The notes under the pieces are model-generated. The model ran no database searches and had not been told where the DNA came from. It worked only from the letters and a program-made list of their open reading frames with translations. From an uncultured Bacteroidota bacterium (lineage in GTDB: Bacteria > Bacteroidota > Bacteroidia > Chitinophagales > Chitinophagaceae), in the NCBI GenBank assembly GCA_903839875.1, contig CAIMDZ010000011.1, forward strand, positions 1-55,393: a stretch of DNA of 55,393 nucleotides. Direction: 5' to 3'. Positions 7,249 through 53,589 of this stretch are shown piece by piece (the stretch's first letter is position 1; each line of letters begins with the position of its first letter). A program made the translations under genes and the position numbers.

Positions 7249-7761
7249 CTATTTCACCTTATAAAAATGTACCGTATCATAATAATACGCAGGATTGTTA
7301 AGGTTTTCAATAATCCGTTTCTGTAATTGCTTCTGGTTAAGCGTCCGTAGGGTAGTATCATGTACAGTTGTGGTAGTCATTTTTGTAAAGGTTTTGTTTA
7401 CACTTAGTATTTTCAGAAATAAATAACCGTTGTGATCATTTCCATTATATTCGCTATATCCCACATTAATAAAAGTTGCACCTCCTATCTTTGATAAAAA
7501 AGCTATTGATTCATAAGTGGGGTTAGTGCCGCCCCTGTTCCAGAATTTTACATGGTACATATTGGTCTCATAACCTGGGTATCCACTGAAAACCTCATAA
7601 AAATTATTCTTATTAGTATCTTCTTCAAATTTCCAATTACCTATCAAACTATCGTTTAGATTATTTGATGAAGCGTCAGTAATTGGAAATTTACATATGC
7701 TCTTGCAACTGCATAAAAACATAAAAACAAGCAAAGGGAGAAACAGTAATGCTTTTTTCAT
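7249..7761 (-). CDS. Lipoprotein of unknown function, 170 aa
   Basis: The start at 7761 is preferred over a longer frame because it opens a lipoprotein signal peptide: MKKALLFLPLLVFMFLCSCK with a cysteine lipobox near 17-19. The mature part begins with a Ser/Asn linker and continues as a beta-rich domain (GNWKFEEDTNKNNFYEVF) that resembles small lipocalin-like lipoproteins of this phylum, though I cannot place it firmly. It is expected on the inner face of the outer membrane or on the surface. The stop lies just upstream of the orphan T9SS fragment. Confidence 0.65.
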   Translation of the reverse strand: MKKALLFLPLLVFMFLCSCKSICKFPITDASSNNLNDSLIGNWKFEEDTNKNNFYEVFSGYPGYETNMYHVKFWNRGGTNPTYESIAFLSKIGGATFINVGYSEYNGNDHNGYLFLKILSVNKTFTKMTTTTVHDTTLRTLNQKQLQKRIIENLNNPAYYYDTVHFYKVK

Positions 7762-10937: not shown

Positions 10938-11544
10938 CAGGAAATAATTTTTTGCAAGGTAAGATTTATTAGTCATCCCAACTCTGGCAATGAGTGAATT
11001 CCCGTTTGTTTGGAAATAAAATGAGTGCCTGCACAGAGTGACTTTATGCTGGTTCATGTGGCAAATATGCTATTAAATGTACTTGTAATGATTAGAATCG
11101 TCGAAAAATTGATCATAATCATGTGGTGGCATGTCCGTAGTCATAAAATCCGGCTATATTGGATGGTATCTTTGAAATGTAGTTTAAAACATACTTTTTA
11201 CAAACTAATGATATAATACTTCCCGTCTTTATCGCTGCCAGGGTAAAACCTCTTTCCTTCCTGAAAGCTGACTTATTAAAAAAAAGTCGGCTTTCGTATT
11301 TATATGAATACAGGAATGATTCCGGTATTATTAAATTGTGCACCGGATAAGTTTGTGCATTGATCAATAAGAGCTTTGCGAGCTTAACAACGCAACAAGA
11401 GTGTAATAAAATGATAAAAATTGCGCCTTTGCTGCCTACCCCGCCATTGGCGGTGGTGAAACTCTTTTGCACAAATCTATGCTGCGTGAAGTATAAATTG
11501 CTATTTTGAAGAAAAATAGCTGCTTTTTATCCTTGTCCCTGTGA
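10938..11544. other. Intergenic stretch with no supported gene
   Basis: Open frames here (for example 11119-11472 minus) lack domains, signal peptides and sensible composition. A small CCGCC-ATT-GGCGG hairpin lies at 11441-11453. The stretch holds the promoter of the lipoprotein gene on its low side and the 3-prime end of ftsH on its high side. Confidence 0.4.
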
Positions 11545-13645: not shown

Positions 13646-14707
13646 CTATCTTATTGATTTTTCAAGTTTTACGTCATTTATGATTTCGATCTTATTGTCC
13701 TTTATGTCAATCAGCTTTTCGTTTTTAAATTCAGTGAGTGTACGGATAAAAGATTCTGTAGCAGTGCCTGCAAGCGCTGCCAGGTCATCGCGTGAAATGT
13801 CAATATAGAAACGTTCTTTTTTATTAGTATGATATTTCTTTTCCAGGCTGTTTAGTGCGGTTGCAACTTTTTTACGGAGGGTATTATAGGCTATGCCCAG
13901 AAGGTGAGTTTCATTCTCGGAAATATTTTTAGCCAGCATTTTTATTACTTTGCGTTGCACCCCCGGGTTTTTATGCAGCAGATCTTCAAAATCTTTTTTC
14001 GGTATCAATGTCAGTTCTGTTTCTTCTATTGCTTCAGAAGTTTCTTTATAGGCTGATTCTTCCAGCAATGAAATATAACCAAAAAAATCACCCTCGTTAA
14101 ACAGATCCATTACCAGTTGCTTGCCATCGTCATGAGTTTTATAGGTCCTTACTTTACCTTTTTGAACGTAATACAGATAGTGTGGCGTATGACCTTCTTT
14201 GTAGATCACCTGTTTTTTCTGATAAGTATTTGTATCATGATCACGTGGCAGCGTTTCAAGGGTGCCGTTATTCGATTCATTAGCCTCCATTAATTCGTTG
14301 AGGCCTTTGAGGTCGGCGCTCAGGTTCTTCTTCATCACTGCCATTCTCCTGAACCTGTTTTCTACAGCCTTGAGCAATTCATCGCCATTGAATGGTTTGG
14401 TAATATAATCATCCGCACCCGAGTCCATTGCATTACGGAAATCATTCCGGTCACTTTTGGAGGTAAGAAAAATAAAAGGGACATCCTCTGTTTTGGGGTC
14501 CTTGCGCAATACATGCAGCATACCAAAACCGTCTACGATCGGCATGGCAATATCACTGACAACCAGGTCCGGCATGAACTCATATGTTTTTTCAATACCT
14601 TCTTTTCCATTGACTGCTGATATGACCTTATAATTTGCCAATGTAAGAATTTCTGCAACATCTTCGCGTATTACTTCATTATCTTCAACTATCAGAACCG
14701 TTTTCAT
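13646..14707 (-). CDS. Response regulator: receiver fused to Crp-type sensor and DNA-binding domains
   Basis: The protein has three parts. A receiver domain (about 1-122) carries the acidic pair ED near 8-9, phosphoacceptor Asp in VVSDIAMP (residue 52 from this start) and the conserved Lys in YITKPF. A cyclic-nucleotide-binding-like domain (about 150-265) follows, recognisable from VIYKEGHTPHYLYYVQKGKV and FNEGDFFGYISLL. The C terminus is a Crp winged HTH with LAALAGTATESFIRTLTEF as recognition helix. Phosphorylation by the adjoining kinase would thus directly control a Crp-type DNA-binding protein. The start at 14707 (MKTVLIVEDN) is preferred; an in-frame ATG lies at 14716. It overlaps the kinase gene by 23 bp, so the two are translationally coupled. 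Candidate binding sites lie before its own operon and before nearby genes. Confidence 0.9.
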   Translation of the reverse strand: MKTVLIVEDNEVIREDVAEILTLANYKVISAVNGKEGIEKTYEFMPDLVVSDIAMPIVDGFGMLHVLRKDPKTEDVPFIFLTSKSDRNDFRNAMDSGADDYITKPFNGDELLKAVENRFRRMAVMKKNLSADLKGLNELMEANESNNGTLETLPRDHDTNTYQKKQVIYKEGHTPHYLYYVQKGKVRTYKTHDDGKQLVMDLFNEGDFFGYISLLEESAYKETSEAIEETELTLIPKKDFEDLLHKNPGVQRKVIKMLAKNISENETHLLGIAYNTLRKKVATALNSLEKKYHTNKKERFYIDISRDDLAALAGTATESFIRTLTEFKNEKLIDIKDNKIEIINDVKLEKSIR

Positions 14708-15935
14708 TTTGTTCAATTTGATTATTAAATGTGATTATAAATTCACTTCCTTTATTTATTTCGCTCTTAAATGCAATTGTTCCATCCAAAATCTCCACAT
14801 ACTTCTTTACAATATTTAATCCCAGGCCTGTGCCTTCTATATGAACGGCATTTGAGCTGCGGAAAAATCTTTTGAATAGATTTTCCTGTTCTTTTTCAGG
14901 AATACCTATCCCATAATCTTTTACTCTAATGACCAATTTCTGATCCACCTGGTCAATAATTATTTCAATAGGGCTGTTTTCAGGAGAATATTTAATTGCA
15001 TTTGACAGGAGATTGGTGATTATGTGGTGAAACATTGACTTGTCTATATAAGCAATGCTGGTTTCGCCATTATGCTGGTATGAAATATTTTGCCCGGCTT
15101 TTAAAATATATTTTAACTCCTGTATAATCTCATTAACCTCATCGCTAACATTGAACCACGTAAGATTGGGTTTAAAATTTCCCTGCTCTATTTTATCTAC
15201 TGACAGGAAATCTCCCAATACTTCATTCAACAAATTGACTGAAGAAATTATGCGTTTAATATGCCTGTCCCTATGTGGCTGTTCTTCTCCTTTAGTATAT
15301 TTAGAAAGCAGGTAGGTGGATGCTAATACTCCTGATAAAGGCGTTCTGAATTCATGTGATGCAACCGAAACAAAGCGTGATTTTAACTGGTTCAGTTCTT
15401 TTTCTTTTTCCAGCGCCTTTTCTAACTCCTCATCCTTCCGTTCATTTTCCTTTATCTGCCTGCTTAACTGATCTACAGTTGCATTTAACGACCTGGTACT
15501 TTCTTTCACCTTTTGGTCAAGTTCGGCGTTCAGGCGTTTAATGGTATCTTCTGCTTCTTTTTTCTGGCTGATATTATTTACAAATGCAATGTAGTAATTG
15601 TCTTCCTGCTCTTTGTAAAAACCAAGCTTCATTTCAATATAAAACTCACTTCCGTCTTTTTTAATGCCCTTCAGGTTTCTGTCCGCCGGAATTGATAAAT
15701 TCGTGGGGTTTAAAAAAAAGGTTTCACGATGCCTCTCATGCACCTCCTTGTATTGCGCTGGTACCAGGAATTCTACTTTTTGGTGAATGATTTCATGTTC
15801 CTCATAGCCAAATTCATCCAGGATATATTTATTTACAGCTTCAATTTCCCCTTTATTATTAACTACAATAATGCCAATAAATGCTTGATCAAATAAGGTT
15901 GAGAATTGGTTGTTATTAAAAATATGATGCAACAT
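14685..15935 (-). CDS. PAS-domain sensor histidine kinase
   Basis: The protein is 416 aa without a membrane segment, so it is cytoplasmic. A PAS domain lies at about 10-125 (AFIGIIVVNNKGEIEAVN, ending with the PAC-type FVNNISQKKEAEDTI), then a coiled coil at about 126-185. The dimerisation domain has the phospho-accepting His194 in VASHEFRTPLSG. The ATPase domain has the N box NLLSNAIKYSP, G1 VKDYGIGIP and G2 EGTGLGLNIVKKY. No cysteine cluster or heme-binding residue stands out in the PAS domain, so the signal (oxygen, redox, energy state) cannot be read. It is the first gene of the operon with the REC-Crp regulator and is its obvious partner. Confidence 0.93.
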   Translation of the reverse strand: MLHHIFNNNQFSTLFDQAFIGIIVVNNKGEIEAVNKYILDEFGYEEHEIIHQKVEFLVPAQYKEVHERHRETFFLNPTNLSIPADRNLKGIKKDGSEFYIEMKLGFYKEQEDNYYIAFVNNISQKKEAEDTIKRLNAELDQKVKESTRSLNATVDQLSRQIKENERKDEELEKALEKEKELNQLKSRFVSVASHEFRTPLSGVLASTYLLSKYTKGEEQPHRDRHIKRIISSVNLLNEVLGDFLSVDKIEQGNFKPNLTWFNVSDEVNEIIQELKYILKAGQNISYQHNGETSIAYIDKSMFHHIITNLLSNAIKYSPENSPIEIIIDQVDQKLVIRVKDYGIGIPEKEQENLFKRFFRSSNAVHIEGTGLGLNIVKKYVEILDGTIAFKSEINKGSEFIITFNNQIEQNENGSDS

Positions 15936-15999: not shown

Positions 16000-16064
16000 C
16001 AAATATATATTGGTACTAACATTAAGAATATGACATTGGTTGGTTTTTTTAATGATTATCATCA
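16000..16064 (-). promoter_or_regulatory. Promoter and Crp/Fnr-type box of the kinase/REC-Crp operon
   Basis: On the minus strand TATATTTG (16007 to 16000) fits the Bacteroidota -7 element. The palindrome TGAT-TATC-ATCA (16053-16064, inside AATGAT-N4-ATCATT) is centred 58.5 bp upstream of its last base, two helical turns further than at the neighbouring promoters and near the classic class I activator position. A second inverted repeat, TAGTAC / GTACTA, at 15995-16018 straddles the -7 element. Autoregulation by the REC-Crp protein is inferred. Confidence 0.5.
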
Positions 16065-16101
16065 TTGTTATAGATTATTTTGTTAGGATTTATACAAATT
16101 A

Positions 16102-16128
16102 AAATACCCGGTCAAATGCCGGGTATTT
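16102..16128 (-). terminator. Terminator after the BON gene
   Basis: AAATACCCGG (16102-16111) and CCGGGTATTT (16119-16128) form a perfect 10-bp stem with a 7-nt loop. It lies 49 bp past the BON stop and is followed on the minus strand by TAATTT. It insulates the kinase operon promoter from BON transcription. Confidence 0.75.
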
Positions 16129-16176
16129 CTGAAGCCGGGATATTTATTTTGTTAAAGTTACAAAGGTAAATATCGT

Positions 16177-16829
16177 CTATGGAGCAATTACAAGTTCATC
16201 TTCTACAGCCATTACTCCGGGCGCACACCAGGCTGCTCTTTCAACTTCATTTCTTTCGCTCCAGGAACGTGCTTTACCTCTTAGTGTCACTTTATTTCCA
16301 TGAGTTTCAATAATAATCCTGTCAGCTTCAATATCAGCGCTGCGTTCCAGCGCTTTTTTTATTGTATCTCTTACAACGGGGATATTTACCCTTGGTTTAA
16401 TGTTAATAAGATTAGTTACACCTTTTACACCTACTATATCGTCTACAACCAGTGTCGCAGCATCTTTCTGAAACTGCCAGTCTAACTGGCCTTCTAGTGT
16501 CAGCCACCCGTTTTCAACTGACAATTTGATTTTATCATCAGGAACACTGCTATTCCATTTGAGTGCATTAACTGCCGCTTCGGCAATTTCAGTATCCGTA
16601 CGTTGCCCGTCACGCAGCAACCTCACATTTATTTCTTCGGCTATTCCTTTTACTTCCTTACCCGTTTTACAGCCTCTTCAGCTGCCAGTTTTTTTGTATA
16701 GCTATTTACACTTCCGCTTAGCGTTATTATGCCGTTTTTAGCAGCCACTCCTATTTCAGCTGAATCAAGTTTTGGATCCCACTTCAATTCGTCCATAACA
16801 TCCTTCTGTAGTTGCAAGTCCGTTTTCAT
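16177..16829 (-). pseudogene. BON-domain protein, three domains, split by a one-base frameshift
   Basis: From the ATG at 16829 the first frame encodes a complete BON domain (MKTDLQLQKDVMDELKW, GVAAKNGIITLSGSV) and then stops at TAA (16650-16652) right after AVKRVRK. Adding one G near 16655 restores the expected VREVKGIAEEINVRLLRDG, and the second frame carries two further BON domains to 16177. Three-domain BON proteins of about 217 aa are usual in Bacteroidota and act as periplasmic or cytoplasmic stress proteins that may bind membranes. The GTG at 16626 could start a two-domain product, but no ribosome site favours it. It is divergent from hsp20 and has its own box and -7 element. Confidence 0.8.
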
Positions 16830-16861
16830 AATATTGATTTTTATGTTTAAAATATTTTTTA

Positions 16862-16904
16862 CAAACGTACATCGTTATATAAGGATTGCCTATGACTACT
16901 GTCA
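16862..16904 (-). promoter_or_regulatory. BON promoter: Crp/Fnr-type box 36.5 bp above a -7 element
   Basis: TGAC-TACT-GTCA (16893-16904) is a perfect palindrome. On the minus strand TACGTTTG (16869 to 16862) fits TAnnTTTG. Box centre to last base of the -7 element is 36.5 bp, giving an activator position of about -42 if transcription starts six bases on. No TTG is seen at -33, as expected for an activator-dependent promoter. Confidence 0.6.
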
Positions 16905-16977
16905 AGGCAATTACTGATGTTCGTAAGTAACAAAATTCGTCATTCATTTTTCGACTGATTAAGTTCAATGCACCTAT

Positions 16978-17020
16978 TGACTAACATCATTTGAAGCGGT
17001 CAGGTGCGGGGATAGCTTTG
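16978..17020 (+). promoter_or_regulatory. hsp20 promoter: Crp/Fnr-type box 36.5 bp above a -7 element
   Basis: TGAC-TAAC-ATCA (16978-16989) precedes TAGCTTTG (17013-17020), again with exactly 36.5 bp between box centre and last base. TTG at 16991-16993 lies 19 bp before the -7 element, so this is also a good sigma-ABfr promoter. Extended with two T's, the box differs from that of the kinase operon (TGATTATCATCATT) at only two of 14 positions. Confidence 0.65.
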
Positions 17021-17054
17021 CATTATTATTTAACTAAAACAAAAGGAGGATCAA

Positions 17055-17492
17055 ATGTCACTGAAAACATTAGCAAGACCCAGCAGCTTCACTTCGGTGT
17101 TAAGCGATTTTTTTGAACCATGGAATGAGTGGTTCCTCGACGGTTCAGCCGGCAAAGCTTTGACTTTACCAAGAGTCAACATTACAGAAGACAAAACCAG
17201 TTATAATTTGTCAGTAGCCGCACCCGGACTGCACAAAAAAGATTTTAAAATTGACGTTGACGGTAACCTGTTGACAGTAAGCGCTCATAAAGAAGAAGAG
17301 AAAGAAGAAAAGGACGATTCATTTACCCGCAGGGAATATAATTATTCTTCTTTTTCACGGTCTTTCACTATGCCTGAAGAAGTAGATCTCGACAAGATCA
17401 ATGCTACCTATGATGGTGGAGTATTAAAATTAGCTCTTCCTAAAAATGAAAAAGCATTGAAGAGTTCACAAAAAGCAATTCCGGTAAACTAA
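17055..17492 (+). CDS. Hsp20 / alpha-crystallin small heat shock protein
   Basis: The 145-aa cytoplasmic chaperone holds unfolding proteins in a refoldable state. The alpha-crystallin domain spans about 33-130: PRVNITEDKTSYNLSVAAPG, a charged flexible loop (EEEKEEKDDSFTRREYNYSSF), and ATYDGGVLKLALPK in place of the usual A-x-x-x-NGVL-x-I motif. The C-terminal tail is short, with IPV as the I-x-V-like oligomerisation motif. AAGGAGG at about 17042-17048 is an unusually strong Shine-Dalgarno sequence for this phylum, which suggests high expression when induced. It is a single gene between a box-containing promoter and a clear terminator. Confidence 0.92.
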   Translation: MSLKTLARPSSFTSVLSDFFEPWNEWFLDGSAGKALTLPRVNITEDKTSYNLSVAAPGLHKKDFKIDVDGNLLTVSAHKEEEKEEKDDSFTRREYNYSSFSRSFTMPEEVDLDKINATYDGGVLKLALPKNEKALKSSQKAIPVN

Positions 17493-17514
17493 TTTACCTA
17501 TCAGCGTGATAACG

Positions 17515-17553
17515 ATAACCCGGCAATTATTTCCTGCCGGGTTATTTATTTTA
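17515..17553 (+). terminator. Terminator after hsp20
   Basis: ATAACCCGGCA (17515-17525) and TGCCGGGTTAT (17535-17545) form an 11-bp stem with a 9-nt loop followed by TTATTTTATT. It lies 23 bp past the stop. Confidence 0.85.
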
Positions 17554-17670
17554 TTAAAATGATCAATTCCTTATGAATAAATGATTGAATTGGTGAAGTT
17601 CGAAAATATATTTCGTGTCTGTTTTTCGCAATACTATGTCATCCTCCAAATCAAAATGAAATCAATAGTT

Positions 17671-17713
17671 GGATTTTTATCAACTTAAATATTGGGATGC
17701 TAAAGTATTTTTG
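17671..17713 (+). promoter_or_regulatory. Small-lipoprotein promoter: near-box 36.5 bp above a -7 element
   Basis: GGAT-TTTT-ATCA (17671-17682) differs from TGAY-N4-RTCA at one base, and TATTTTTG (17706-17713) is a perfect TAnnTTTG. The spacing is again exactly 36.5 bp. The start codon follows 30 bp later. Confidence 0.5.
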
Positions 17714-17742
17714 TAATATTGTCTACCTAAAATTGTTGTAAA

Positions 17743-18012
17743 ATGAAAAATTTACTCTTTCTCCTGATAGCAGGATCAATGTTTATCGCCTCATGTGCCA
17801 CTCGCACAGATTGTTATACGTGCCTGACATTAGTTTCTAATAATGGGACCTACACAAATTATACTTACATTAGAACGGACACGTTCCGGGATTGCAATAT
17901 GACGTCAAAAGATGCCAGGAAATACGAGGAAGCAAATACGATTAATGCACCAATGGACAACCATTTCCCCGGCGAAACCCGGACAACCCGGTGTGATGTT
18001 TCTAAGAACTAA
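17743..18012 (+). CDS. Small cysteine-containing lipoprotein, 89 aa
   Basis: The signal peptide MKNLLFLLIAGSMFIASC ends in a lipobox with Cys18. The mature 70 residues include CYTC near 24-27, a further Cys in RDCNM, and a last Cys near the end, so one or two disulfides are likely. No known family is recognised. Its promoter carries the same box and -7 arrangement as hsp20, and the gene lies inside the REC-Crp region, so it is probably a stress-induced envelope protein. Confidence 0.7.
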   Translation: MKNLLFLLIAGSMFIASCATRTDCYTCLTLVSNNGTYTNYTYIRTDTFRDCNMTSKDARKYEEANTINAPMDNHFPGETRTTRCDVSKN

Positions 18013-18100
18013 CCAATATTTTTTATCGCTTATGCATCAATTAGCATAGCAGGTGTTCGTATCCCGTGTGGTTTTATTCTTGCCCGAATAGAATCGAATT

Positions 18101-18712
18101 TTATTTTTTCCTTAAACACCACGTAGTCATGCAACGTAAATTTTCCACGTTGGTTGTTTTAATGGGTTCATAAAGTTCCCCGTTGAGTTCCTTTGTATAG
18201 TTAATGAGGGTTTCTAAATTTACCAGGAATCGTTCGGAACCATCGGGCAGTAAATACCTGCCATTCCCAATTGGCTTAACAAGGTTTTCGATACCAAAAT
18301 CAGAAGCCAGCCTGGTAAATAAATAGCCTCCGGGTTTTAATATCCTCCAAACGGAGCGTACCATTTTATCAAAATGATCTTTATCGTTTGCAAAATGGAG
18401 TACTGCATTGCAAATGACCACGTCAAAAAAATTATTTTCAAATGGTAACTCTTCAACCTTCGCAACTACAAAATTGTCTGTGGGATTTCCTGGGGATAAT
18501 TGCTGCGACAGTATTTTTACAGCCGCTACTGCCCGGGAATCCTGGTCTATACCATATACCTGATAACCATTTTTAAGGAAATAAACCAGGTTCCGTCCTC
18601 CGCCACAACCAATGTCAATGACTGTTTTGCAATTATCATACCTGCCCTTGAGCAACTGGTCGAATAGGTAGATGTCTATATTGCCGAATTCAGCTTGTAA
18701 ATTGCTGTTCAT
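18101..18712 (-). CDS. Class I SAM-dependent methyltransferase
   Basis: The 203-aa cytoplasmic enzyme has the Rossmann-fold SAM motifs: motif I VIDIGCGGGRNL (about 32-43), an acidic end of strand 2 in GIDQDS (about 55-60), motif IV FDVVICNAVLHF (about 96-107) and a following LKPGGYLF. It belongs to the Methyltransf_11/25 group, whose substrates range from quinones and small molecules to metals, so the substrate cannot be predicted. It sits 40 bp downstream of the DUF2889 gene and is probably co-transcribed with it. Confidence 0.85.
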   Translation of the reverse strand: MNSNLQAEFGNIDIYLFDQLLKGRYDNCKTVIDIGCGGGRNLVYFLKNGYQVYGIDQDSRAVAAVKILSQQLSPGNPTDNFVVAKVEELPFENNFFDVVICNAVLHFANDKDHFDKMVRSVWRILKPGGYLFTRLASDFGIENLVKPIGNGRYLLPDGSERFLVNLETLINYTKELNGELYEPIKTTNVENLRCMTTWCLRKK

Positions 18713-18752
18713 AGTATTTGAGAGAGTGGTCAGGAATTGATGTCAAATGTGG

Positions 18753-19274
18753 TCATTCAGACTTTTCCTTATAGATAAAGCATGTGTTCTTAAGCAAGCG
18801 CCTCGATAGCTCGAACTTCTGTTGCTCGTCAAGGATATTAAAATCACGGCTCATAAGACCAAAACCTTCGTCGTAACCAATTAAAGTGGTTGCGGCAAAA
18901 TTAATGGTCTCTAATGCCAACTCTTTCAAATGAACACAGCCTTCGCTGCCCCCGATCTTCTGCAAAATGGTTTTTGTGATGCCTCGTTCTATTTTTACAC
19001 CAATCAATAGTTTCGCTTTTTCAGCTACCATGGGGCAAGCCGCATGAGGATGGCTGGCAAATTCACTTTTTGCGCTTACAATGGTTTTGGTGCCGGGTTC
19101 AATGTGAAGGTTTAACCTGATTAAATGATAAGGATCTAATAAAGTTGCTTCCAGCATCAGATTTCCATTTTCCAGCTCAAAGGCTTCGATGCCAATATCT
19201 CTCTTGGAAACAAGTCTCTTTACCGGTATCCTTTCCATTTTGGCAATTGTGTCTGCGTTTTCTGTTTCGTTCAT
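18753..19274 (-). CDS. DUF2889 family protein
   Basis: The 173-aa protein matches DUF2889, whose members have unknown function. Visible family features are a central ATLLDPYHLIRLNLHIEPGT block where relatives have a Y/F-rich metal or ligand segment, then ASHPHAACP, and a late GGSEGCVHLKEL motif (the family GC-x-HL) with Cys and His that could bind metal. It has no signal peptide. The methyltransferase gene follows. DUF2889 genes occur in many proteobacteria and are less usual in Bacteroidota. Confidence 0.7.
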   Translation of the reverse strand: MNETENADTIAKMERIPVKRLVSKRDIGIEAFELENGNLMLEATLLDPYHLIRLNLHIEPGTKTIVSAKSEFASHPHAACPMVAEKAKLLIGVKIERGITKTILQKIGGSEGCVHLKELALETINFAATTLIGYDEGFGLMSRDFNILDEQQKFELSRRLLKNTCFIYKEKSE

Positions 19275-19358
19275 AGTTTATTTATTAGCTCCTTAATTAA
19301 CAGCGCATTCAAAGGCATCTGTTTTGTATAATTTCCAGAGTGCAAAATTACGAATAAA

Positions 19359-19460
19359 ACCATAGCCCACGGTTTCAACCGAGGGTAAAAAAGTAAAAAA
19401 TGAGTGCTAACTAACCGTTTCAACGGTTTATAATATGTGGATAAACAGTTTAAACCGTTC
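19359..19460. repeat. Palindromic repeats after the broken lipoprotein gene
   Basis: CCCACGGTT (19366-19374) faces AACCGAGGG (19377-19385) with one mismatch, and AACCGT (19413-19418) faces ACGGTT (19423-19428). A related TAAACCGTT lies near 19451. The related palindromes look like copies of a dispersed REP-like intergenic repeat and may double as terminators for the gene ending at 19493. Confidence 0.5.
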
Positions 19461-19492
19461 TGTTGGCATCAGTTACTATTTCATTCATAAAA

Positions 19493-20077
19493 TCAACGCC
19501 GCACTTTCCATTCTTTTGAGATGATGAAATTGCCTTGTTCAGCGGGAGCTCCTTTAAAGTAAACAGTGGCGCTGACATAATATTCAAAAAATGCGGTAGA
19601 ATCTGCACTTGTATACAAAGTAGTAACGCTGTCTATTGTATTCTTTGTTTTTTGCACAATCAATCTGCTCTCGTTGATTTGAACGGAGTCTGCATTTATT
19701 TTTGCGGTTTGTTCTTTGAATGAAGCATCATCATATTTTTCCCCATGTTTTTCATACATGGCTTTTTGTTGGCCAAGGCTCCATAGCAGGGTGGAGTCTG
19801 CTTTAAGCAATGCCACTTTTGATTCCCAGACATCATTATAGGTTTTGAGCAGGCGGTAACAATTGTCCATCAGGATCTTTAAACTGTTCTTTTGGGTCAG
19901 GGTGTCAATGGCAGAAATGCCAATACTATCAATAACAGGAACATCCTTTTTATCCATACCTGTGATAAGGTAGCTGGTAATAGCCTCCTATATTTTTTTT
20001 GAAACTTCGTTTTTTGGTCCCCCGGAGCATGAAGCAAAAAGGATAATAATAACAATGGGAATAAATGGTTTTCTCAT
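19493..20077 (-). pseudogene. Lipoprotein gene interrupted by one in-frame TAG
   Basis: The ATG at 20077 opens a lipoprotein signal (MRKPFIPIVIIILFASC, lipobox Cys17). Codon 30 is TAG (19988-19990), and the same frame continues without further stops as EAITSYLITGMDKKDVPVID and on to 19493. The continuation, 164 codons, is helical and charged with a closing beta-rich part. Translation from the internal ATG at 19957 would give a 154-aa cytoplasmic protein lacking the export signal. Because the frame is kept on both sides, a single substitution or a sequencing error is the simplest cause. The family is not recognised. It is divergent from cytochrome c, and TAAATTTG (minus, 20138 to 20131) is a likely -7 element. 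Confidence 0.7.
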
Positions 20078-20170
20078 CAAAAGAAAATTGGTTTTGAAAA
20101 GTGTAGTAAATTAAATAAATAGTACGATTTCAAATTTACTTATCTTTTGGTTTTTTTTAGTAATTAACCA

Positions 20171-20213
20171 TGACTTATATCATAATATTTGCTGGGCATC
20201 TATAATATTATTG
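20171..20213 (+). promoter_or_regulatory. Cytochrome c promoter: Crp/Fnr-type box 36.5 bp above a -7-like element
   Basis: TGAC-TTAT-ATCA (20171-20182) has the same half-sites as the hsp20 box. TATTATTG (20206-20213) matches TAnnTTTG at all but one fixed base and ends exactly 36.5 bp from the box centre. The ATG follows 14 bp later. The box may also serve the divergent gene at 20077. Confidence 0.55.
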
Positions 20214-20227
20214 CAGTAAAATATAAA

Positions 20228-20629
20228 ATGAAACCTTTTTATACAATTATCTTCTTTTCACTATTTAGCTGGGCTGGTACTTGCTTCGCTCAAATTGATC
20301 CATGGATTGCGCCTGATTATGCAAATAGAATTAAGAATCCCATTGCAAATAATGCAAAGGAAACTGAAAAAGCAAAGAAGGTGTATTTTACCGTATGTAA
20401 TGTATGTCATGGAGATCATGGAAGAGCAGACGGAATCGCTGCATTGCCATTGAGGCCAAAGCCCGCAAATTTCACAACCGATGAAGTGCAGAACCAGACC
20501 GATGGTGTACTATTCTGGAAGTTAACCAATGGCAGGGGCCCTATGGCACATTATGACTCATTGACCCGTAATCAAAGATGGCAGTTGGTGAATTTTATTA
20601 GACAATTAGGAAAAGAAAGTAAACTATAG
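20228..20629 (+). CDS. Periplasmic class I cytochrome c
   Basis: The start at 20228 (MKPFYTIIFFSLFSWAGTCFA) opens directly into a signal peptide; a longer frame from 20189 does not. The 133-aa protein has one heme site, CNVCH, at about 59-63, and a probable Met axial ligand in GRGPMAHY. The end NQRWQLVNFIRQLG is the usual C-terminal helix of the cytochrome_C / CBB3-type fold. It would carry electrons in the periplasm, for example to a terminal oxidase or nitrosative-stress enzyme. Its promoter shares the box of the REC-Crp region, which fits redox or oxygen control. Confidence 0.88.
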   Translation: MKPFYTIIFFSLFSWAGTCFAQIDPWIAPDYANRIKNPIANNAKETEKAKKVYFTVCNVCHGDHGRADGIAALPLRPKPANFTTDEVQNQTDGVLFWKLTNGRGPMAHYDSLTRNQRWQLVNFIRQLGKESKL

Positions 20630-53546: not shown

Positions 53547-53589
53547 CAAATGTATCAGAATGTGGTAGCTTCCTGATTGAAAGAAATCA
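53547..53589 (-). promoter_or_regulatory. TonB receptor promoter: Crp/Fnr-type box 36.5 bp above a -7 element
   Basis: TGA-AAGAAA-TCA (53578-53589) has both outer triplets of the TGAY-N4-RTCA box. On the minus strand TACATTTG (53554 to 53547) fits TAnnTTTG. Spacing from box centre to the last base is exactly 36.5 bp, and the ATG lies 81 bp downstream. Confidence 0.5.

Follow-up and report, generated by a model that had tools for sequence, protein, structure and literature searches.

A fixed Crp-box promoter geometry in Bacteroidia, with a receiver-Crp fusion protein as candidate regulator of energy and stress genes

The window (the whole 55,393-nucleotide stretch of DNA analysed here) is contig 11 of the genome of an uncultured Chitinophagaceae bacterium (5.29 Mb, 97% complete). 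It contains a set of promoters in which a Crp-type palindrome, TGAY-N4-RTCA (the box), stands at one fixed distance from the -7 element TAnnTTTG. It also encodes a Crp-type transcription factor fused to a receiver domain (REC-Crp), next to a PAS histidine kinase. The original prediction, made from the letters of the window, had described the spacing at four promoters. The observation is confirmed and is larger than first described: the spacing recurs throughout the genome, is often accompanied by a second box exactly 22 bp upstream, precedes the REC-Crp operon and a family of small RNA (sRNA) genes, and is found across the class Bacteroidia, where genomes with REC-Crp have more sites. Our explanation, to which we give a probability of about two in three, is that a Crp-family activator acts at -41.5 and -63.5, that REC-Crp is the main such protein in the genus and that the sRNAs provide a repressing arm.

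Promoter geometry

Distances are expressed here as the gap, that is, the number of base pairs between box and -7 element. A gap of 23 equals 36.5 bp from the box centre to the last base of the -7 element. Boxes taken alone are not significant in the window (7 against 3.36 expected; 6 of 100 shuffles reach 7) and the analysis was therefore restricted to the box together with the -7 spacing.

Re-reading base by base gives a gap of exactly 23, as claimed, at four promoters. These are the promoters of a BON-domain gene on the reverse strand (exact box 16893-16904; -7 element TACGTTTG, 16862-16869) and, on the forward strand, of the small heat shock gene hsp20 (exact box 16978-16989; TAGCTTTG, 17013-17020), a small lipoprotein-like gene (box 17671-17682; TATTTTTG, 17706-17713) and a cytochrome c gene (exact box 20171-20182; TATTATTG, 20206-20213). 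The single mismatches ascribed to the lipoprotein box and to the cytochrome c -7 element are present as described. The interval 16000-20213 thus holds four gap-23 sites compared with a simulated mean of 0.018, and none of 1000 simulations reaches four. With up to one mismatch, the 55 kb window contains six gap-23 pairs (mean 0.09 and maximum 2 in 100 Markov simulations) and four gap-45 pairs. The window sites that had not been described before, at 11132-11143 (+) and 53578-53589 (-), have one mismatch each.

The predicted enrichment at this distance is also seen genome-wide. Exact pairs with gaps of 8 to 38 number 83, of which 45 have gap 23, 11 have gap 24 and three have gap 22; the mean per gap apart from 23 and 24 is 0.93, and the reversed pattern gives only 4 matches. 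There is a second peak among the 47 pairs with gaps of 39 to 69 (gap 45, 18 pairs; gap 44, five; gap 46, two), where the mean is 0.79 per gap outside 44-46 and the reversed pattern gives 8.

According to the passages covered of PMC9723704, TAnnTTTG occupies positions -12 to -5 in Flavobacterium. If the start site is placed in this genome as in Flavobacterium, as we infer, the box would be centred at -41.5 for gap 23, -42.5 for gap 24 and -63.5 for gap 45. The main peak (45 of 83 pairs) would then occupy the class II Crp position near -42 that was originally proposed.

A second box (up to two mismatches) is located exactly 22 bp upstream of 22 of the 56 sites with gap 23 or 24, compared with 0.97 at other offsets (p = 2e-24). 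Conversely, a TCA half-site stands in the proximal register at 16 of the 18 pairs with gap 45. This common second box at -63.5 accounts for the kinase/REC-Crp promoter. The box of that operon had been described as lying 22 bp farther out, which re-reading supports (gap 45), but it is not an exception to the rule: it forms the upstream part of a promoter with two boxes on the reverse strand, with an exact distal box (16053-16064, -63.5), a degenerate proximal box (16031-16042, -41.5; two mismatches, right half GTCA intact) and the -7 element TATATTTG (16000-16007). Distal boxes with one mismatch are also present at the promoters of BON (16915-16926, -) and hsp20 (16956-16967, +). A further double-box promoter near 11 kb (+) has an exact distal box (11110-11121, gap 45), the proximal box 11132-11143 (gap 23) and the -7 element TATCTTTG (11167-11174).

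REC-Crp and the number of sites

The REC-Crp gene (13646-14707, -) was identified from its open reading frame (ORF), its place in the tree described below and Pfam matches to Response_reg, cNMP_binding and HTH_Crp_2. Its ATG was chosen by eye, and a TTG at 14716 is a possible alternative. The kinase gene (14685-15935, -; Pfam PAS_9, HisKA and HATPase_c) lies 5' of it and overlaps it. The protein combines the features of two groups. As in response regulators, its receiver carries a phospho-acceptor Asp with the Thr/Ser and Lys (D54, T84 and K106 in the window protein; D in 38, T in 39 and K in 38 of the 40 rows of the tree). As in the Crp/Fnr superfamily, a cNMP-binding-like domain is combined with an HTH_Crp_2 domain whose recognition helix has Glu and Arg. 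These residues (E320 and R324), which we take to be DNA contacts from the roles of their counterparts in CRP and FNR, are kept in all 40 rows. The protein scores 80.9 bits against the NCBIfam CRP equivalog (cut-off 266) and 64.2 bits against Fnr (cut-off 228). Since both scores are far under the cut-offs, the switch is likely to be driven by the receiver rather than by cAMP, and the operon order suggests that phosphate would come from the neighbouring PAS kinase. The best Crp-type structures by sequence, 4ev0 (216 residues, E = 8e-19) and 2gau (232 residues, E = 1e-18), presumably from Thermus (SdrP) and Porphyromonas, match only from residue 148 or 164 and leave the receiver uncovered.

In a tree of 40 REC-Crp rows, the type found in the window ('a', seven genomes) forms a clade apart from the common 'b' copy. 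All seven 'a' genes have a box at their own promoter, exact at gap 45 in the window and in five further genomes and with one mismatch in the seventh (G027). In G003 and G024 the box directly precedes REC-Crp 'a', though the nearest kinase shares only about 31% identity. No boxes were found for the 'b' paralogue; the flank was long enough (at least 2.6 kb) only in G000, G008, G020 and G003, most 'b' loci spanning about 1.5 kb or less, perhaps short of the kinase promoter. A one-mismatch site at gap 45 does occur in the long-branch row G016b. G020 and G027 (loci L152 and L153) contain a third type of REC-Crp, which is diverged (about 50% identity) and sits on a long branch.

Orthologous promoters, which were expected to keep the box, were compared in the source genome, G008 and G029. 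The box is retained before hsp20 and before the kinase in all three genomes and before BON in two; the BON promoter of G029 has none at up to one mismatch. No orthologue of the lipoprotein or cytochrome c gene turned up in the six stretches retrieved.

Site numbers were compared at two levels. Across the 35 genomes of the genus, gaps 22-24 account for 646 sites and the control gaps 27-29 for 35. The seven 'a' genomes have 59, 48, 44, 40, 36, 28 and 21 sites, about three times more than the other 28 (mean 13.2; p = 1.2e-4). Six of them belong to one sub-clade of the 'b' tree, where the members lacking 'a' have 13 (G012), 12 (G004), 8 (G025), 10 (G011) and 9 sites (G032). Five genus members without a full REC-Crp (57 to 85% complete) have 15, 3, 1, 8 and 1.

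The class-wide sample consists of 295 other Bacteroidia genomes, each at least 90% complete (296 with the source genome), REC-Crp being scored as present for a match at E up to 1e-40. Together the 295 genomes hold 1604 sites against 120 reversed-pattern matches. The 144 genomes with REC-Crp have a mean of 7.4 sites (median 6) and the 151 without have 3.5 (median 3; p = 2.5e-13). Sites are absent from 4 of the former and 33 of the latter, and site density is 1.91 against 1.09 per Mb (p = 2e-8). The association persists when labels are shuffled within the 24 informative families (183 genomes; p = 0.0022). With 59 sites the source genome is the maximum among the 296 (the runners-up have 34 and 33) and, among the genomes sampled, this promoter code is most expanded in this genus.

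The box therefore tracks REC-Crp in the genus and in the class, as had been anticipated, but does not do so exclusively. Several results weigh against REC-Crp as its regulator. At least one site is present in 118 of the 151 genomes without REC-Crp (up to 19), and G054, which also lacks REC-Crp, has 12. Raw means are higher without REC-Crp in 6 of the 24 families (f22, f23, f25, f35, f39 and f78), and a first set of 25 genomes from outside the genus gave 4.75 sites with and 3.3 without REC-Crp (p = 0.31). The 'a' genomes are also larger, and support is only 86/88 for the 'a' clade and 92/77 for the sub-clade that provides the closest comparison. Finally, only two of the six Crp-type helix-turn-helix proteins in the genome are REC-Crp. 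One of the other four, encoded at G000:C24:831-1586 (L116), has a cysteine-rich N-terminus like that of Fnr (by eye) and is a candidate Fnr-like oxygen sensor and rival regulator. The gene beside it encodes a cysteine-rich, iron-sulfur-like protein (by eye).

The geometry must consequently be common to other Crp proteins as well; it is a Crp promoter code of the whole class, which REC-Crp either has in common with them or acquired from them. The most serious alternative is that the boxes belong to a single-domain Crp/Fnr protein, either this C24 protein or the Crp encoded on C186, and that REC-Crp is simply a regulated gene or a minor co-regulator. The occurrence of the geometry, with fewer sites, in genomes without REC-Crp favours this, as do the RExxxR-type recognition helix of the C186 Crp (by eye), the box just upstream of its start and the iron-sulfur neighbour of the C24 protein. 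We consider it less likely, since within families site numbers are higher where REC-Crp is present, and inside a single genus sub-clade where the 'a' copy is, and since all five genomes other than the source that have at least 20 sites in the 296-genome sample (G120, G253, G295, G329 and G346) possess REC-Crp. REC-Crp as regulator of the sites is thus well supported, though neither exclusive nor proven.

A family of small RNA genes

The most unexpected addition is an array of apparent sRNA genes that, judged from sequence, would represent a new family. Contig 221 carries four exact sites in tandem, 179 to 195 bp apart and with no gene between them, preceded by a fifth unit with one mismatch. 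Each unit consists of a box, a -7 element, about 80-100 nt and a hairpin, the first and last units being the most diverged. At C46:1110 there is a sixth unit, which is shorter and has a hairpin and T run. A covariance model trained on eight transcripts, with promoters excluded, found four copies outside the training set (E up to 0.004; G020, G027, G032 and G011), and in each of the four the box is exact, with gap 23 or 24. No site at up to one mismatch accompanies the weaker matches (eight rows, E 0.0087 to 0.05), three further weak matches or those in six genomes outside the genus.

In total, 13 units from seven genomes were compared. Most of them had been located through their boxes, a bias that affects all but the four copies found by the model. 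The distal box, 22 bp farther upstream, is exact in nine, has one mismatch in three and two mismatches in one. In ten sequences, four of the nine hairpin pairs have changed on both sides and 97.8% of cells are paired.

It is improbable that the contig 221 units are instead repeated short leader or attenuator elements, or promoters of very short peptides. Units u5 and u3 are indeed diverged and the units are only about 80-100 nt long, as such a reading might lead one to expect. However, seven genomes have the same combination of promoter, conserved core and terminator-like hairpin as a single unit, the hairpin showing compensatory changes. The first three exact units have no ORF of at least 60 aa within 350 bp, and the last is followed only by a 64-aa TTG ORF, 245 bp on. 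No short reading frame shared by the units was seen by eye.

Rfam gives no match at the gathering threshold (L112, L076 and the window). In a relaxed Rfam scan of eight loci (G020 and G027 excluded), FopS (RF04319) came up only at L184 1170-1228 (E = 0.46), off the sRNA-like element, and FnrS is not among the seven matches up to E = 1. Matches over the sRNA genes to the L20 leader (E = 0.05) and STnc40 (E = 0.31) are weak and were judged to be due to chance. One further candidate copy in the source genome (L007, E = 0.0059) was rejected; it has no box and resembles a gene terminator. Downstream of the array, a repeat is present in two copies (L112 1602-1835 and 2669-2903; 94% and 76% alike in two segments).

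The core UUUUUCAUAGG (by eye) also occurs in other genera (G036, G431, G505 and partly G362), where it has no box, and the RNA may therefore be older than its Crp control. At one of these loci (L185, G362), a weak model match outside the genus, the core reads GGTTTTTCATAGG and no Crp box is present at up to one mismatch. In the window, no listed same-strand ORF of at least 60 aa starts within 350 bp downstream of the promoter at 11110-11174 (+). A hairpin (GAAAGCTGACTT / AAGTCGGCTTTC, by eye) lies about 90 nt past TATCTTTG. The region 11110-11300 (+) is possibly a further sRNA of the regulon.

The sRNA core UUUUCAU is complementary to AUGAAAA starts, and the sRNAs might act on start regions. 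Overall, target prediction failed: over 177 start regions, mechanically chosen ORFs included, the six sRNAs pair with starts no better than with internal regions (equally for u4, more weakly for the others). The best-of-all shuffle test was applied to u4 and u2 only. The best pairings of u4 are with two ATGAAAAAA starts, those of a boxed gene on contig 40 and of the window gene 7249-7761 (-), and none of 150 dinucleotide shuffles equals them; those of u2 are not significant (matched by 73 of 150). With its ATGAAAAAA start and a leader complementary to u4, 7249-7761 is a candidate sRNA target. Within the window, the sRNA model has its two highest-ranking matches (E = 0.43 and 0.71, both of them weak) opposite, in strand, to gene starts, at 20077 (-) and 7761 (-), as expected of complementary target sites. 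The former region, beside cytochrome c, pairs with u4 at -26.7 kcal/mol; it was one of three start regions chosen beforehand, for which the counts from 300 shuffles are descriptive only. The ORF at this position (19493-20077, -) is secreted-protein-like, has an in-frame stop at codon 30 and has a leader complementary to u4 in two blocks.

Predicted regulon and comparison with known systems

Within the window, the genes following the boxes encode the BON-domain protein (16177-16829, -), the small heat shock protein (17055-17492, +; Pfam HSP20), a small secreted or lipoprotein-like protein (17743-18012, +; an ORF with no Pfam or NCBIfam match) and cytochrome c (20228-20629, +; Pfam Cytochrome_CBB3 / Cytochrom_C; ATG by eye, the ORF being listed from 20189). 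The BON start at 16829, placed by eye, is about 33 nt past its -7 element. Pfam BON covers 16177-16626 and the frame seems broken before 16626, which may be an assembly error. The box at 53578-53589 (-) has gap 23 to TACATTTG (53547-53554) and lies upstream of an ORF starting at about 53465 (by eye).

Elsewhere in the genome, downstream ORFs were chosen mechanically (the first suitable one with an ATG, no more than 350 bp from the site) and some target assignments will therefore be wrong. A Pfam match at 1e-5 was obtained for 33 of 49 proteins (window genes were scanned separately). Among these predicted targets are three universal stress proteins (Usp), a second BON protein and a baeRF-type protein; a NuoA-type subunit, a 4Fe-4S ferredoxin, a doubled-CXXCH cytochrome, a cytochrome c assembly protein and a tRNA_anti-like protein (CcmE by eye); FeoA, an Nramp transporter and an MlaE permease; and enolase, fumarase, the glycine cleavage P-protein, an acyl-CoA enzyme and a PLP enzyme (cysteine-synthase-like by eye). 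Others do not fit any theme: dehydroquinate synthase, DciA, an AraC-type regulator, a lycopene-cyclase-type protein, an aminotransferase, an ABC protein, and TPR and NHL proteins. The proposal that hsp20, BON and respiratory genes form part of one Crp-type regulon is borne out to the extent that all are among the predicted class II targets, together with Usp. The content suggests a regulon for stress, energy and respiration, with other genes mixed in, and oxygen would be a plausible signal.

In the explanation that we prefer, a Crp-family activator would bind at -41.5 on Bacteroidota sigma-A promoters, frequently accompanied by a second dimer at -63.5, 22 bp or two helical turns farther upstream. 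The PAS kinase would phosphorylate the receiver domain of REC-Crp, possibly in response to low oxygen or energy limitation, and phospho-REC-Crp would bind TGAY-N4-RTCA and contact RNA polymerase. It would thereby activate its own operon, protective genes (hsp20, BON and Usp), genes for electron transport, heme and iron, and central metabolism, and the sRNAs with double-box promoters. The sRNAs would in turn pair near start codons and constitute the repressing arm. On this view REC-Crp is a candidate for the master switch of energy and stress genes. That no regulator is involved and the spacing is a by-product of promoter composition, with AT-rich box and -7 words clustering in short intergenic promoters, has practically nothing left in its favour, because the gaps next to the peak are almost empty (three pairs at 22, none at 20, 21, 25, 26 or 27), another narrow peak appears at a distance of exactly 22 bp, and the reversed-pattern (4 against 83) and gaps 27-29 (35 against 646) controls reject chance clustering.

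One close analogy is with the class II promoters of Escherichia coli CRP and FNR, which have TGA-N6-TCA at -41.5, an optional upstream dimer and a global energy regulon. The palindrome at -41.5, the optional second dimer and the energy regulon are alike. The present system differs in having the Bacteroidota sigma-A element TAnnTTTG in place of the -10 element, a receiver on the candidate regulator and a distal box exactly 22 bp upstream (-63.5). Hypoxia and dormancy regulons of the DosR/Anr type combine hsp20, universal stress proteins and respiratory genes, a content like that predicted here; DosR, however, is a LuxR-type regulator, whereas the regulator here is Crp-type (output domain HTH_Crp_2), and phylum and operator differ.

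Bacteroides thetaiotaomicron has a Crp-family global regulator, BT4338, with a predicted sugar regulon, the operator TATGTTnTAnAACATA and a site upstream of the gene that encodes it (PMC3878776, in the passages covered). The site at its own gene is a common feature. The present boxes (TGAYNNNNRTCA) do not match TATGTTnTAnAACATA, the genes concerned there are for sugar use, and the passages covered mention neither a -7 spacing rule nor a receiver domain (PMC3878776). Among open-licence papers, taking the top-ranked results, we found no Bacteroidota Crp regulon with this operator and spacing.

The sRNAs have parallels in two systems, each described here from the passages covered. In E. coli, FNR drives the sRNA FnrS (PMC8139620), so that a Crp/Fnr-type regulator governs genes as well as an sRNA, as is proposed here. 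The differences are the lack of an Rfam match, the up to five tandem copies, the double-box promoters and the receiver-fused candidate regulator. FopS/GibS of B. thetaiotaomicron are, like the present family, multicopy sRNAs in Bacteroidota; they pair near start codons, and the fopS genes have canonical sigma promoters and a possible unknown regulator (PMC11697453). Here, by contrast, each unit has Crp boxes, and RF04319 did not match at the sRNA genes scanned.

Taken further, REC-Crp might be the Bacteroidota counterpart of FNR, Anr and DosR: driven by a phosphorelay, using a class-wide two-dimer code, with a duplication of the regulator that expanded the regulon about threefold and an sRNA arm that silences envelope and secreted-protein genes at AUGAAAA. 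We put this forward tentatively, as somewhat under an even chance. Little is known of how Bacteroidota control their energy and stress genes globally. The box, 23 bp and TAnnTTTG together make a 43-base rule, which predicts activated promoters in Bacteroidia from the sequence and brings with it a candidate regulator and a test that can be repeated genome by genome. The sRNA family would give the regulon a post-transcriptional arm and provides a concrete RNA to look for.

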